A stretch of DNA of 64,000 nucleotides from Xanthobacter sp. YC-JY1 (GTDB lineage: Bacteria > Pseudomonadota > Alphaproteobacteria > Rhizobiales > Xanthobacteraceae). Of the stretch, positions 2,856-6,789 are shown one piece after another. Location: the NCBI RefSeq assembly GCF_021730305.1, contig NZ_CP032674.1, positions 3,209,001-3,273,000 of the forward strand. The letters run 5' to 3'. Position 1 is the stretch's first letter, and the number at the start of each line of letters is the position of its first letter. The notes under the pieces are model-generated. The model worked only from the letters and a program-made list of their open reading frames with translations. It ran no database searches and was not told where the DNA came from. The translations under genes were made by a program, and so were the position numbers.

Positions 2856-2890
2856 AAAAGGCCGCGCCCGGTGAGGGCGCGGCCTTTTTC
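2856..2890. terminator. Bidirectional intrinsic terminator (argC / His-rich gene)
   Basis: A perfect 10-bp GC stem (2860-2869 with 2875-2884) and a 5-nt loop are flanked by AAAA on the left and TTTTT on the right. It can therefore end argC on the plus strand and the converging ArsR/His-rich operon on the minus strand. Confidence 0.9.
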
Positions 2891-2917: not shown

Positions 2918-3274
2918 TCAGCCGCGGACCACCTCGACCGGGCCATGGTCGTCGCAATGGCCGTCGTGGGGGTGGTGCAGGTGGCCGTCCACGAGATAGT
3001 CGACATGATCGCCGTGGGGCACCGCCTCATGACCGCAGCCGGGGCCGTGGACATGGCCTGGCTCGTGGCCCGCGCAGCTGTGGTTGGGGGTGCAGCGGTC
3101 GGGATTGGTCTCGCTCACCGCGATCACATGCTCGTCCACATGGTCGCCGTGCATGTGGTGGAGGTGGCCGTCGTGGAGATAGTCCACGTGCCCCTCGTGG
3201 CGGATGGCGGTGTGGCCGCAGCCGGGGCCATGCTGGTGGTCGTGGTTCGGGTGGATCTTGCAGGTCCCAGACAT
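2918..3274 (-). CDS. Histidine-rich duplicated-repeat protein, putative metal-binding
   Basis: A 118-residue soluble protein with about 27 His and 6 Cys by my count, and no signal peptide or membrane segment. It consists of two copies of one unit of roughly 35 residues: GPGCGHxAxxHxxHVDYLxDGHLHH, then more His/Asp. The first copy covers about residues 16-50 and the second about 72-108, with a short linker holding two extra Cys. Its start lies 15 nt downstream of an ArsR-family regulator with a zinc-type sensor site, so the two are probably co-transcribed. This composition suggests binding or buffering of zinc, cadmium, nickel or similar ions. Related small His-rich proteins are widespread but I know of no assigned function. 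It ends at a shared terminator. Confidence 0.8.
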   Translation of the reverse strand: MSGTCKIHPNHDHQHGPGCGHTAIRHEGHVDYLHDGHLHHMHGDHVDEHVIAVSETNPDRCTPNHSCAGHEPGHVHGPGCGHEAVPHGDHVDYLVDGHLHHPHDGHCDDHGPVEVVRG

Positions 3275-3289
3275 GGCTTGCTCCTCGCT

Positions 3290-3601
3290 TCAATGATTCT
3301 CGCAGGCGTGCTCCACCGCGCTCGCCACGAGGGCCAGCACATGGTCGTCCGCCAGGTGATAGAGGATCGACTTGCCCTCGCGCCGCCGCCCGACGAGGCG
3401 CGCGGCATGAAGCACCTTCAGCCGCACCGACACCGTCGAGAGCTTCTCCCCCTGGGCCTCCGCCAACTCCGTGACCGAAGCCTCGCGACCGGCCAGCAGG
3501 ATCAGCAGCCGCAGGCGCTGGGGATCGGCCAATGCGGAGAACATCCCCGCCGCCTCATCCACCTGCCGGCCCGTGAGCGAACGCTGCGCGTCGAAACTCA
3601 T
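3290..3601 (-). CDS. ArsR/SmtB-family metal-responsive repressor
   Basis: A 103-residue winged-helix repressor. Family signatures are FSALADPQRLRLLILL near residue 20-38 and the recognition helix segment EKLSTVSVRLKVLHAARLV. The C-terminal helix matches the SmtB/CzrA alpha-5 metal site exactly in the spacing DxHx10HxxE (Asp85, His87, His98, Glu101), which in characterised relatives binds Zn and sometimes Co, Ni or Cd at the dimer interface. The alpha-3N cysteine pair used for Cd/Pb sensing is not evident. It heads a two-gene operon with the His-rich protein. The predicted -10 lies so close to the ATG that the mRNA may be nearly leaderless. Confidence 0.92.
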   Translation of the reverse strand: MSFDAQRSLTGRQVDEAAGMFSALADPQRLRLLILLAGREASVTELAEAQGEKLSTVSVRLKVLHAARLVGRRREGKSILYHLADDHVLALVASAVEHACENH

Positions 3602-3609
3602 GTGAACAC

Positions 3610-3638
3610 TCTATCAATCGTTGAAGCGTTGAAGTCAA
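3610..3638 (-). promoter_or_regulatory. Promoter with overlapping direct/inverted repeats for the arsR operon
   Basis: Reading the minus strand, a TTGACT -35 (3633-3638) and a GATAGA -10 (3610-3615) are spaced by 17 nt. The spacer contains two adjacent copies of CTTCAACG. On the plus strand the same region shows TCAA-N3-TTGA (3614-3624) and TTGA-N2-TCAA (3629-3638). Repeats between -35 and -10 are where ArsR-type repressors usually bind, so autorepression is a reasonable inference. Confidence 0.6.
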
Positions 3639-3803: not shown

Positions 3804-5195
3804 ATGAGCTTTGTCGTCTGCCTTGCGGCACTCTTCTTCCTGATGCTCGTGGCCTATCGGGGCTTCAGCGTCATCCTGTTCGCCCCCGTCGCCGCCATCG
3901 GCGCGGTGCTGCTCACGGATCCGGCCGCGGTGCCGGTCGTCTTTTCCGGACTTTTCATGGAAAAGATGGTGGGCTTCATCAAGCTCTACTTCCCGGTGTT
4001 CCTGCTGGGCGCCGTCTTCGGCAAGCTCATCGAGCTGTCGGGCTTTTCGCGGTCCATCGTCGCTTCGGTGGTGAAGCTGCTGGGGCCAGGCCGCGCCATC
4101 CTCTCCATCGTGCTGGTGGGCGCCCTGCTGACCTACGGCGGCGTCTCGCTGTTCGTGGTGGTGTTCGCCGTCTATCCCTTCGGCGCGGAAATGTTCCGCC
4201 AGGTGGGCATTCCCAAGCGGCTCCTGCCGGCGGTGGTGGCGCTCGGGGCGTTCTCCTTCACCATGGACACGCTGCCCGGCACGCCGCAGATCCAGAACAT
4301 CATCCCCACCACCTTCTTCCACACCACCGCTTATGCCGCGCCCATCCTGGGCCTCGTCGGAACCGCCTTCATTCTCGCGGTGGGGCTGTCCTACCTCGAG
4401 TTCCGCCGCCGCCAGGCGGCGAAGGCCGGCGAGGGTTACGGCACCGGCCACCTTAACGAGGTGGTGGTGGACGAGACCGTGCCGCTCGTTTCCCCGATTC
4501 TCGCCTTGCTGCCGCTGGTGGTGGTGGGCATCGCCAACCTGATCTTCGCCCGCCTCATCCCGCAGTGGTTCGAAGCCACCGCGACCGCCACGCTGGTTCC
4601 GGGCGCGGCCCCCGTCAGCGTGCCGACCAGCACCTGGGCGGCGATCTGGGCCGTGGAAGCCGCACTGCTTCTCGGCATTTTCACGGTCGCGGTGTTCGGC
4701 TTCAAATCCATCGCCGGCAAGTTCTCCACCGGCTCCAAGGATGCCGTGTCGGGCGCGCTGCTCGCGGGCCTCAACACCGCCACCGAGTACGGCTTCGGCG
4801 CGGTCATCTCGGCGCTGCCCGGCTTCCTTCTCATCAAGTCGGCGCTATCGGCCATCCCCAATCCGCTGGTCAACGAGGCCATCACCGTGACCACGCTGGC
4901 CGGCATCACCGGCTCGGCCTCGGGCGGCCTGTCCATCGCGCTCGCAGCCATGTCGGAGCAGTTCATCGCCCAGGCCAATGCCGCCGGCATCCCCATGGAG
5001 GTGCTGCACCGCGTCGCTTCCATGGCCTCCGGCGGCATGGACACGCTGCCCCACAACGGTGCCGTCATCACCCTACTCGCCGTGACCGGTCTGAGCCACC
5101 GGCAGGCCTATGGCGACATCTTCGCCATAACGCTGGTGAAGACCGCCGCGGTGTTCTTCGTGATCGGCTTCTATTATCTCACCGGCCTCTATTGA
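3804..5195 (+). CDS. GntP-family permease, copy 1
   Basis: A 463-residue inner-membrane permease made almost wholly of hydrophobic helices, from MSFVVCLAALFFLMLVAYRG to the C-terminal FVIGFYYLTGLY. It belongs to the GntP (gluconate:H+ symporter) superfamily, whose members also carry hydroxybutyrate and other small organic acids. Typical segments are LTYGGVSLFVVVFAVYPF, DTLPGTPQIQNIIP and the HNGAVITLL region near the end. It is followed 202 nt later by a second permease of exactly the same length and very similar sequence. No catabolic gene lies beside it, so the substrate is open. The start is chosen because it matches the start of the second copy. Confidence 0.88.
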   Translation: MSFVVCLAALFFLMLVAYRGFSVILFAPVAAIGAVLLTDPAAVPVVFSGLFMEKMVGFIKLYFPVFLLGAVFGKLIELSGFSRSIVASVVKLLGPGRAILSIVLVGALLTYGGVSLFVVVFAVYPFGAEMFRQVGIPKRLLPAVVALGAFSFTMDTLPGTPQIQNIIPTTFFHTTAYAAPILGLVGTAFILAVGLSYLEFRRRQAAKAGEGYGTGHLNEVVVDETVPLVSPILALLPLVVVGIANLIFARLIPQWFEATATATLVPGAAPVSVPTSTWAAIWAVEAALLLGIFTVAVFGFKSIAGKFSTGSKDAVSGALLAGLNTATEYGFGAVISALPGFLLIKSALSAIPNPLVNEAITVTTLAGITGSASGGLSIALAAMSEQFIAQANAAGIPMEVLHRVASMASGGMDTLPHNGAVITLLAVTGLSHRQAYGDIFAITLVKTAAVFFVIGFYYLTGLY

Positions 5196-5397
5196 GCGGG
5201 TGCAGCGTCGCGTCCGGTCACGCCCGGGTCGCGGCGCTACAGGGGTTGGCAGGGAATGAGGCCGACCCGGCGGATGCCGCGGCGGCCTCAAGCCATTGCA
5301 GTGCAACAATTCTTATGAATTCCGAAGCTGGTGCTCGGCCGTAGGGCGCATTACTGTCCCGCTTGAGGACTCCCCTACCTGCGCCGGATTGACAGCC

Positions 5398-6789
5398 ATG
5401 AGCTTCGTCGTCTGCCTCGCCGCGCTCTTCTTCCTGATGCTCGTGGCCTATCGCGGCTTCAGCGTCATCCTGTTCGCGCCGGTCGCCGCCATCGGCGCGG
5501 TGCTGCTGACCGATCCGGCGGCGGTGCCGGTGATCTTTTCCGGCCTGTTCATGGAAAAGATGGTGGGCTTCATCAAGCTCTACTTCCCGGTGTTCCTGCT
5601 GGGCGCCATCTTCGGCAAGCTCATCGAGCTGGCCGGCTTCTCGCGCTCCATCGTCTCGGCGGTGGTGAACCTGCTGGGGCCGAGGCGGGCCATCGTCTCC
5701 ATCGTGCTGGTGGGCGCGGTGCTCACCTATGGCGGCGTCTCGCTGTTCGTGGTGGTGTTCGCGCTCTATCCCTTCGGCGCGGAGATGTTCCGGCAGGTGG
5801 GCATCCCCAAGCGCCTGCTGCCGGCGGTGATCGCGCTCGGCGCCTTCTCCTTCACGGCGGATACGCTGCCCGGCACGCCGCAGCTGCAGAACATCATCCC
5901 CACCGCCTTCTTCGGCACCACGGCCTATGCGGCGCCCATCCTCGGCATCGTCGGCTCCATCTTCATCTTCGTGACGGGCATCTCCTATCTGGAATTCCGC
6001 CGGATGCAGGCTCACCGCGCCGGCGAAGGCTACGGCACCGGCCACCTCAACGAGAGCCTGCCCGACGACAGCGTCCCGCCCGTGCCGCCGCTGCTCGCCG
6101 TACTGCCGCTGGTTGTGGTGGGCCTCGCCAACCTGTTCTTCGCCTGGCACATCCCCGGCTGGTTCGGGCCCCACGCCAGCGCGACGCTGGTGGAGGGCGG
6201 ACCGGCGGTGAGCGTTGAGACCCACGTCTGGGCCGGCATCTGGGCGGTGGAGGCGGCACTACTCCTGGGCATCCTCACGGTGGTGGCGTTCGGCTACCGG
6301 GCCATCGCCGGCCATTTCGCCGGCGGCTCGAAGGAAGCAGTGGGCGGCGCGCTCCTCGCCGGCCTCAACACCGCCACGGAATACGGCTTCGGCGCGGTCA
6401 TCGCGGCGCTGCCGGGCTTTCTCGTCATCAAGGCGGCGCTCACCTCCATCCCCAATCCCCTCATCAACGAGGCGATCACGGTGACGACCTTGGCCGGCAT
6501 CACCGGCTCGGCCTCGGGCGGCCTCTCCATCGCGCTCGGGGCCATGGCGCAGCAATTCATCGCCGAGGCGCAGGCCTACGGCATTCCGCTGGAGGTGATG
6601 CACCGCGTGGCCTCCATGGCCGCCGGCGGCATGGACACGCTGCCGCACAACGGCGCGGTCATCACCCTGCTCACCGTGACCGGGCTGACGCACCGTCAGT
6701 CCTACGGCGACATCTTCGCCGTCACCATCATCAAGACCACCGCGGCCTTCTTCGTGATCGGCTTCTATTATCTCACCGGCCTCTATTGA
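5398..6789 (+). CDS. GntP-family permease, copy 2
   Basis: The second 463-residue GntP-family permease, nearly collinear with the upstream copy. The first 50 residues are almost identical. The clearest divergence is in the central cytoplasmic loop (about residues 210-260), where copy 2 reads ESLPDDSVPPVPPLL in place of EVVVDETVPLVSPIL. The start at 5398 is chosen by alignment to copy 1; the frame is open further upstream but that part has no homology to copy 1. The duplicates could differ in affinity, substrate or induction. As with copy 1, the transported compound cannot be read from the neighbourhood. Confidence 0.88.
   Translation: MSFVVCLAALFFLMLVAYRGFSVILFAPVAAIGAVLLTDPAAVPVIFSGLFMEKMVGFIKLYFPVFLLGAIFGKLIELAGFSRSIVSAVVNLLGPRRAIVSIVLVGAVLTYGGVSLFVVVFALYPFGAEMFRQVGIPKRLLPAVIALGAFSFTADTLPGTPQLQNIIPTAFFGTTAYAAPILGIVGSIFIFVTGISYLEFRRMQAHRAGEGYGTGHLNESLPDDSVPPVPPLLAVLPLVVVGLANLFFAWHIPGWFGPHASATLVEGGPAVSVETHVWAGIWAVEAALLLGILTVVAFGYRAIAGHFAGGSKEAVGGALLAGLNTATEYGFGAVIAALPGFLVIKAALTSIPNPLINEAITVTTLAGITGSASGGLSIALGAMAQQFIAEAQAYGIPLEVMHRVASMAAGGMDTLPHNGAVITLLTVTGLTHRQSYGDIFAVTIIKTTAAFFVIGFYYLTGLY

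Follow-up and report, generated by a model that had tools for sequence, protein, structure and literature searches.

A SmtB-type ArsR repressor gene paired with a conserved histidine-rich protein gene in Xanthobacter: a putative zinc-responsive operon

Results

arsR and the gene for a histidine-rich protein form a two-gene operon

The window (the whole stretch of 64,000 nucleotides from Xanthobacter sp. YC-JY1 that was analysed) contains an arsR gene followed, after a gap of 15 nt, by a gene for a 118-residue protein with 27 His and 6 Cys, exactly as a preliminary description made from the sequence had reported. The features recognised at this locus are as follows:

3633..3638 (-), candidate -35 hexamer TTGACT, tentative, read from the sequence
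3605..3630 (-), putative ArsR operator, a 26-bp imperfect dyad AACGCTTCAACGATTGATAGAGTGTT that ends 3 nt before the arsR ATG (expectation-maximisation motif)
3290..3601 (-), arsR, SmtB-type ArsR repressor, 103 aa (HTH_5, NF033788 and SmtB matches)
3299..3349 (-), alpha5 metal site D85-x-H87-x10-H98-x2-E101 of ArsR (alignment to the SmtB zinc ligands)
2918..3274 (-), gene for the His-rich protein, 118 aa, two beta-repeat units (ORF, alignment, AlphaFold2)
3128..3232 (-), repeat unit 1, residues 15-49, HGPGCGHTAIRHEGHVDYLHDGHLHHMHGDHVDEH (alignment, model)
2945..3049 (-), repeat unit 2, residues 76-110, HGPGCGHEAVPHGDHVDYLVDGHLHHPHDGHCDDH (alignment, model)
2856..2888 (-), hairpin terminator 3' of the His-rich protein gene, 14-bp stem (RNA fold z -3.57)

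Because this strong hairpin lies directly 3' of the His-rich protein gene, we conclude that the two genes make up an operon without a transporter. The terminator has a T run on either strand, was also recovered on the + strand by a terminator scan, and is common to the operon and a converging argC-like gene. Both genes are under purifying selection when compared with X. autotrophicus (dN/dS 0.10/0.63 for the His-rich protein gene and 0.06/0.71 for arsR). No zinc-related neighbour adjoining the operon was seen, which we count against a role in zinc overload; elsewhere, the same genome has six genes for CDF-family exporters.

Two tandem membrane permeases are encoded nearby (3804-5195 and 5296-6789, both + strand); they are 82% identical to each other and GntP-like to the eye, and neither Pfam nor NCBIfam returned a match (E 1e-5 / 1e-3). 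A role in anti-phage defence was ruled out, ArsR giving generic HTH matches only, as was phage cargo (zero phage records, two IMG/VR contigs).

ArsR has the alpha5 metal site of SmtB

The repressor matched Pfam HTH_5 (PF01022; 31.2 bits, cut-off 22) and NCBIfam NF033788 (HTH_metalloreg; 76.4 bits, cut-off 55), and the solved structure closest to it was SmtB (E 1e-16, 1r22/1r1t alignment). When the proteins were aligned with phmmer, D85, H87, H98 and E101 fell on the SmtB zinc ligands D104, H106, H117 and E120, the site in the window reading D85-D-H87-x10-H98-A-C-E101. The exact DxHx10HxxE site claimed at the outset is thus correct at all four ligand positions, and covers the alpha5 site only. 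An N-terminal C-x-H arm resembling the SmtB alpha3N site was additionally seen in many operon-linked ArsRs (34-locus alignment), and the window protein was found in that alignment to be without such a Cys/His arm. The pattern DxHx10Hxx(E/H) was kept in 38 of the 39 operon-linked ArsRs (window included; the linked set comes from the best 80 of at least 587 relatives). Variants were noted at locus L015, where Glu replaces Asp, and at L068, where the final position is His.

The His-rich protein belongs to a conserved family with a predicted two-block fold

The preliminary description had recognised two copies of one unit in the His-rich protein, and we found that 24 of 35 positions are indeed identical between residues 15-49 and 76-110 (69% over 35 aa). 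Across 77 aligned family members the mean column identity was 72%, which together with the dN/dS values rules out a chance or spurious open reading frame. There are 38 invariant columns in this alignment, among them about 20 His, C19, C61, C80 and C107 and the DG/DH turns. AlphaFold2 modelled the protein with good confidence (pLDDT 88.4, pTM 0.82) as two blocks, each with four short strands. A low-complexity His tail can be dismissed in view of the invariant columns, which include Gly, Asp and Cys, and the confident fold. The protein is without a signal peptide and no membrane segment is evident.

Searches for known relatives were largely negative. No Pfam or NCBIfam family was matched, and no solved relative was found by sequence or by fold, the top fold match in the PDB having an E-value of 4.2. 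A known metallothionein, Zn-ribbon or Pfam domain was rejected as the identity of the protein, there being no significant match; with 6 Cys in 118 aa and no profile match it also lacks the metallothionein character of SmtA and BmtA. The sole fold match was to a cation-efflux (CDF) protein of the giant virus Yasminevirus (BFVD A0A5K0U9W0; 33% identity across 100 columns, E 7.5e-4). This match suggests that the His-rich protein and zinc transporters have a domain in common. Some divergent two-unit relatives (L112, L113, L139 and L140) have apparent N-terminal signal peptides, and this suggests that they could represent a periplasmic branch of the family. Among the open-access papers searched, we found none that describes the protein, its motif or an operon of ArsR with a His-rich protein. 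The family is widespread, has neither a name nor a described function, and is in that sense a new element.

A 26-bp dyad at the arsR promoter is the putative operator

Expectation-maximisation over 38 arsR upstream regions returned a 26-bp palindrome with the consensus ATCATTCCATnAATTnATGGAATGAT, which was present upstream of 38/38 of the genes tested, although weak at L023 and L061. The motif had an LL of 627 against 57-72 in shuffled sets (one ninth of the likelihood gain), and the top operator score in 2690 background windows was never above 12.9 bits. The window copy scores 26.6 bits; it is among the less symmetric ones, which again counts against the zinc-overload interpretation. In size this palindrome matches the 12-2-12 repeats to which SmtB-type repressors bind (PMC8790569), so that an inverted repeat of the kind expected for the ArsR/SmtB family is found at the arsR promoter. 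It lies downstream of the TTGACT hexamer and covers the spacer and -10 region; a consensus scan did not find a full sigma-70 site at this promoter.

When up to 3 mismatches were allowed, positions 3605-3630 were the sole operator site in the 5.39-Mb genome, and a second ArsR target was excluded at the same stringency; the repressor therefore looks dedicated. In relatives the operator also occurs where arsR is not adjacent. At L067 the His-rich protein gene has the operator at its own promoter (24.4 bits), and at L136/L149 it lies directly upstream of that gene (29.5 bits), the ArsR gene being 2.1 kb off and having its own weaker site. These cases tie the repressor to the His-rich protein gene independently of adjacency.

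Many, but not all, relatives are linked to arsR

A scan of 84,980 species genomes (one genome per species) recovered at least 587 relatives of the His-rich protein. The co-occurrence with SmtB-type regulators that had been proposed for checking was borne out: an SmtB-like ArsR is encoded immediately upstream on the same strand in 38 of the best 80 of these relatives, the two genes being in most cases separated by 2-50 nt or overlapping at ATGA, and the linked pairs come from Alpha-, Beta- and Gammaproteobacteria, Planctomycetota, Myxococcota and Acidobacteriota. One such operon is borne by a conjugative Pantoea plasmid. Within the Xanthobacteraceae the His-rich protein gene was found in 16 of 120 genomes, with ArsR beside 10 of 15 intact copies (the window not counted in the ten).

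However, about half of the best 80 of the at least 587 relatives are without an adjacent ArsR, and some of those have a Zur-type box instead, so the pairing holds as a frequent arrangement and not as a rule. Beyond the best 80, linkage is scarcer: in a random phylum sample and the G390 family, where copies were few, ArsR was adjacent at the window's own copy only, although one unlinked copy has the operator, with ArsR 2.1 kb away. With an adjacent ArsR missing from roughly half of the best 80 and from almost every copy in this small random sample, universal linkage is excluded. On a tree of poor resolution at least 18 changes of linkage state are needed, indicating that the arrangement was repeatedly lost or regained. 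In another genome of the window's genus (G114; L096/L097) the His-rich protein gene has decayed: it persists as two fragments that lie in different reading frames, and the flanks retrieved contained no ArsR gene. The operon is therefore dispensable in the genus. Taken with the operator, the comparisons support the view that arsR and the His-rich protein gene are a genuine co-conserved unit, the His-rich protein being the only plausible output of the operon.

Many relatives lie among zinc genes or behind Zur-type boxes

Genes for CobW GTPases lie within 6 kb in 15 of the best 80 of the at least 587 relatives, where about 2 would be expected (the loci are not all independent). Neighbours of the relatives include ZnuB (several loci), zur, TonB receptors, paralogues of ThrRS and QueD, and CobW/ZigA; Zur-regulated clusters have been listed with such ThrRS and QueD paralogues and with COG0523 genes among their members (PMC2770081). 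On a Paraburkholderia plasmid the gene adjoins znuABC and zigA, and on another plasmid a GTP-binding-protein gene and a WD40 gene. The absence of a transporter noted in the preliminary description accordingly applies to the window, where the terminator follows the His-rich protein gene, and does not extend to relatives, some of which adjoin znuABC or, at L149, have a permease in between. At L152 (474-4126, + strand) a zur-cobW-DUF1007-NicO cluster adjoins the gene, possibly a zinc or nickel handling island.

Zur-type boxes were found 120-190 bp upstream of the His-rich protein gene at six loci; they are strong at L007, at L017 of Halomonas and at L073, where they lie at 130-170 bp, and weaker at L027, L030 and L078. 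All six relatives are without ArsR. Some ten of the ArsR-linked copies also have such a box no further than about 1.1 kb away. Matches in the shuffled control came at 1 per 0.9 Mb. No Zur-type box was found at the window operon, which on this evidence does not belong to a Zur regulon. The boxes upstream of some copies indicate that in some relatives the gene is something other than a zinc-excess gene, while the zinc-starvation islands and the boxes at copies without ArsR make zinc the likely metal.

Short similar stretches were also seen in the upstream regions of two Rhodopseudomonas copies (L024, L072) and two from Verrucomicrobia (L029, L044); they match neither the ArsR operator nor the Zur-type box.

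Discussion

A probable zinc-overload operon whose product may buffer or store zinc

The reading that we favour, and hold to be probable though well short of certain, is that this is a two-gene zinc-overload operon in which the His-rich protein buffers or stores zinc. An ArsR dimer on the 26-bp dyad, an operator proposed from its conservation, would hold both genes off; a rise in cytosolic Zn(II) would fill the alpha5 site and, by analogy with SmtB, release ArsR, and the His-rich protein would then be made. On its two predicted beta-repeat units some 20 invariant His and four invariant Cys could bind several zinc ions and so buffer or store them. The protein would work beside exporters and not instead of them: export is probably handled elsewhere, given the six CDF-family genes of this genome, and for the same reason the buffer may add little tolerance. 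In relatives the protein appears to be wired into zinc-uptake islands, with either the same ArsR or Zur as the link. A reservoir that guards against overshoot after uptake, and that may hand zinc back, fits this wiring, and the twin connection to ArsR and Zur would be easier to understand for such a reservoir than for a protein of detoxification alone. That zinc is the metal and buffering or storage the role is likely.

An alternative would be that the protein is a delivery chaperone that supplies zinc enzymes or COG0523 GTPases mainly in starvation, with ArsR tuning its level. The frequent neighbours CobW/ZigA, znuABC, zur, TonB receptors, QueD and ThrRS paralogues are what this would predict, as are the Zur-type boxes, strong at three loci and weaker at three more. 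We nevertheless think it unlikely, since a SmtB-type repressor releases at high zinc, the wrong direction for starvation, since the window operon has no Zur-type box nearby, and since about 27 His in 118 aa exceeds the need of a one-ion carrier. The metal itself might also be another one, with Ni, Co, Cd or Cu both inducing the operon and being soaked up by a detoxification sponge. Poly-His proteins such as Hpn can bind Ni (PMC4671568), SmtB-family repressors such as AzuR are released by Cd and Pb too (PMC8790569), and a NicO-type gene is present in the L152 cluster; but the alpha5 set of ArsR ends in Glu, like that of SmtB, and the relatives have zinc-uptake genes and Zur-type boxes around them, so that we regard a non-zinc sponge as quite improbable. 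Least credible of all would be an accessory subunit or sensor of a membrane metal transporter, in the manner of PacL1 for CtpC. The giant-virus cation-efflux protein that seems to bear the same domain and the permease at L149 could be read in this way, yet no constant transporter partner is present among the relatives, the window operon has no transporter and the His-rich protein no evident membrane segment.

In L149 itself (4424-6286, - strand) the intervening gene is for an ArsP_1-type permease, placed between a SmtB-like ArsR and the His-rich protein gene, with operator matches at both ends.

Relation to known metal-sequestering systems

Metallothioneins are known from few bacteria, and we found no dedicated cytosolic zinc-storage family in Proteobacteria, metallothioneins aside, described in the papers searched. 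It is conceivable, at somewhat less than even chance, that the His-rich proteins are a new, widespread and structured His-based zinc-storage family, a counterpart of metallothioneins outside cyanobacteria that is wired to SmtB-type and Zur regulators and has periplasmic relatives and a transporter-fused form. With one genome counted per species, the family occurs at no fewer than 587 places; its conservation across phyla is strong, and its predicted fold has no counterpart in the PDB. Control by both zinc-excess and zinc-starvation regulators would open to direct experiment the question whether, and in what way, bacteria store zinc, and the protein is amenable to standard metal-binding and reporter assays.

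To our knowledge Hpn and Hpn-2 of Helicobacter have not been described within a SmtB operon. By description they are likewise small His-rich metal-binding proteins (PMC4671568), but they bind nickel, unlike the zinc proposed here. PacL1 of Mycobacterium is likewise a small metal-binding helper in the response to zinc overload (PMC9374683), although it is a membrane-anchored partner of a P-type ATPase and no relationship to the His-rich protein has been shown. Zur-regulated COG0523 clusters of the ZigA/YciC type keep the same genomic company as many of the relatives, according to the passages of PMC2770081 that were consulted, which do not describe the His-rich protein; COG0523 proteins are GTPases, whereas the His-rich protein is not, and the window copy has no Zur-type box.

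The idea that a stand-alone output of this sort is uncharacterised survives for the protein family but not for the kind of circuit, which is known from SmtB-SmtA and AzuR-NmtA: SmtB/SmtA, BxmR/BmtA and AzuR/NmtA are textbook cases of a SmtB-type repressor whose stand-alone output sequesters metal (PMC8790569). The linkage and the alpha5 site of a SmtB-SmtA type circuit were both found at the window operon. In SmtB-SmtA of Synechococcus and in BxmR-BmtA an alpha5-site repressor is likewise combined with a 12-2-12 dyad and a small cytosolic metal sink; however, SmtA and BmtA are Cys-rich metallothioneins, whereas the sink here would be a His-rich protein of larger size, made of beta repeats and lacking relatives in Pfam, and smtB-smtA is a divergon whereas arsR and the His-rich protein gene are a same-strand operon. 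AzuR-NmtA of Anabaena likewise has an alpha5-type repressor with a sequestering protein as target (PMC8790569). There azuR and nmtA are unlinked and NmtA is a metallothionein, whereas the genes described here are linked; azuR lies inside znuABC (PMC8790569), much like those relatives of the arsR operon that are found in zinc-uptake islands.
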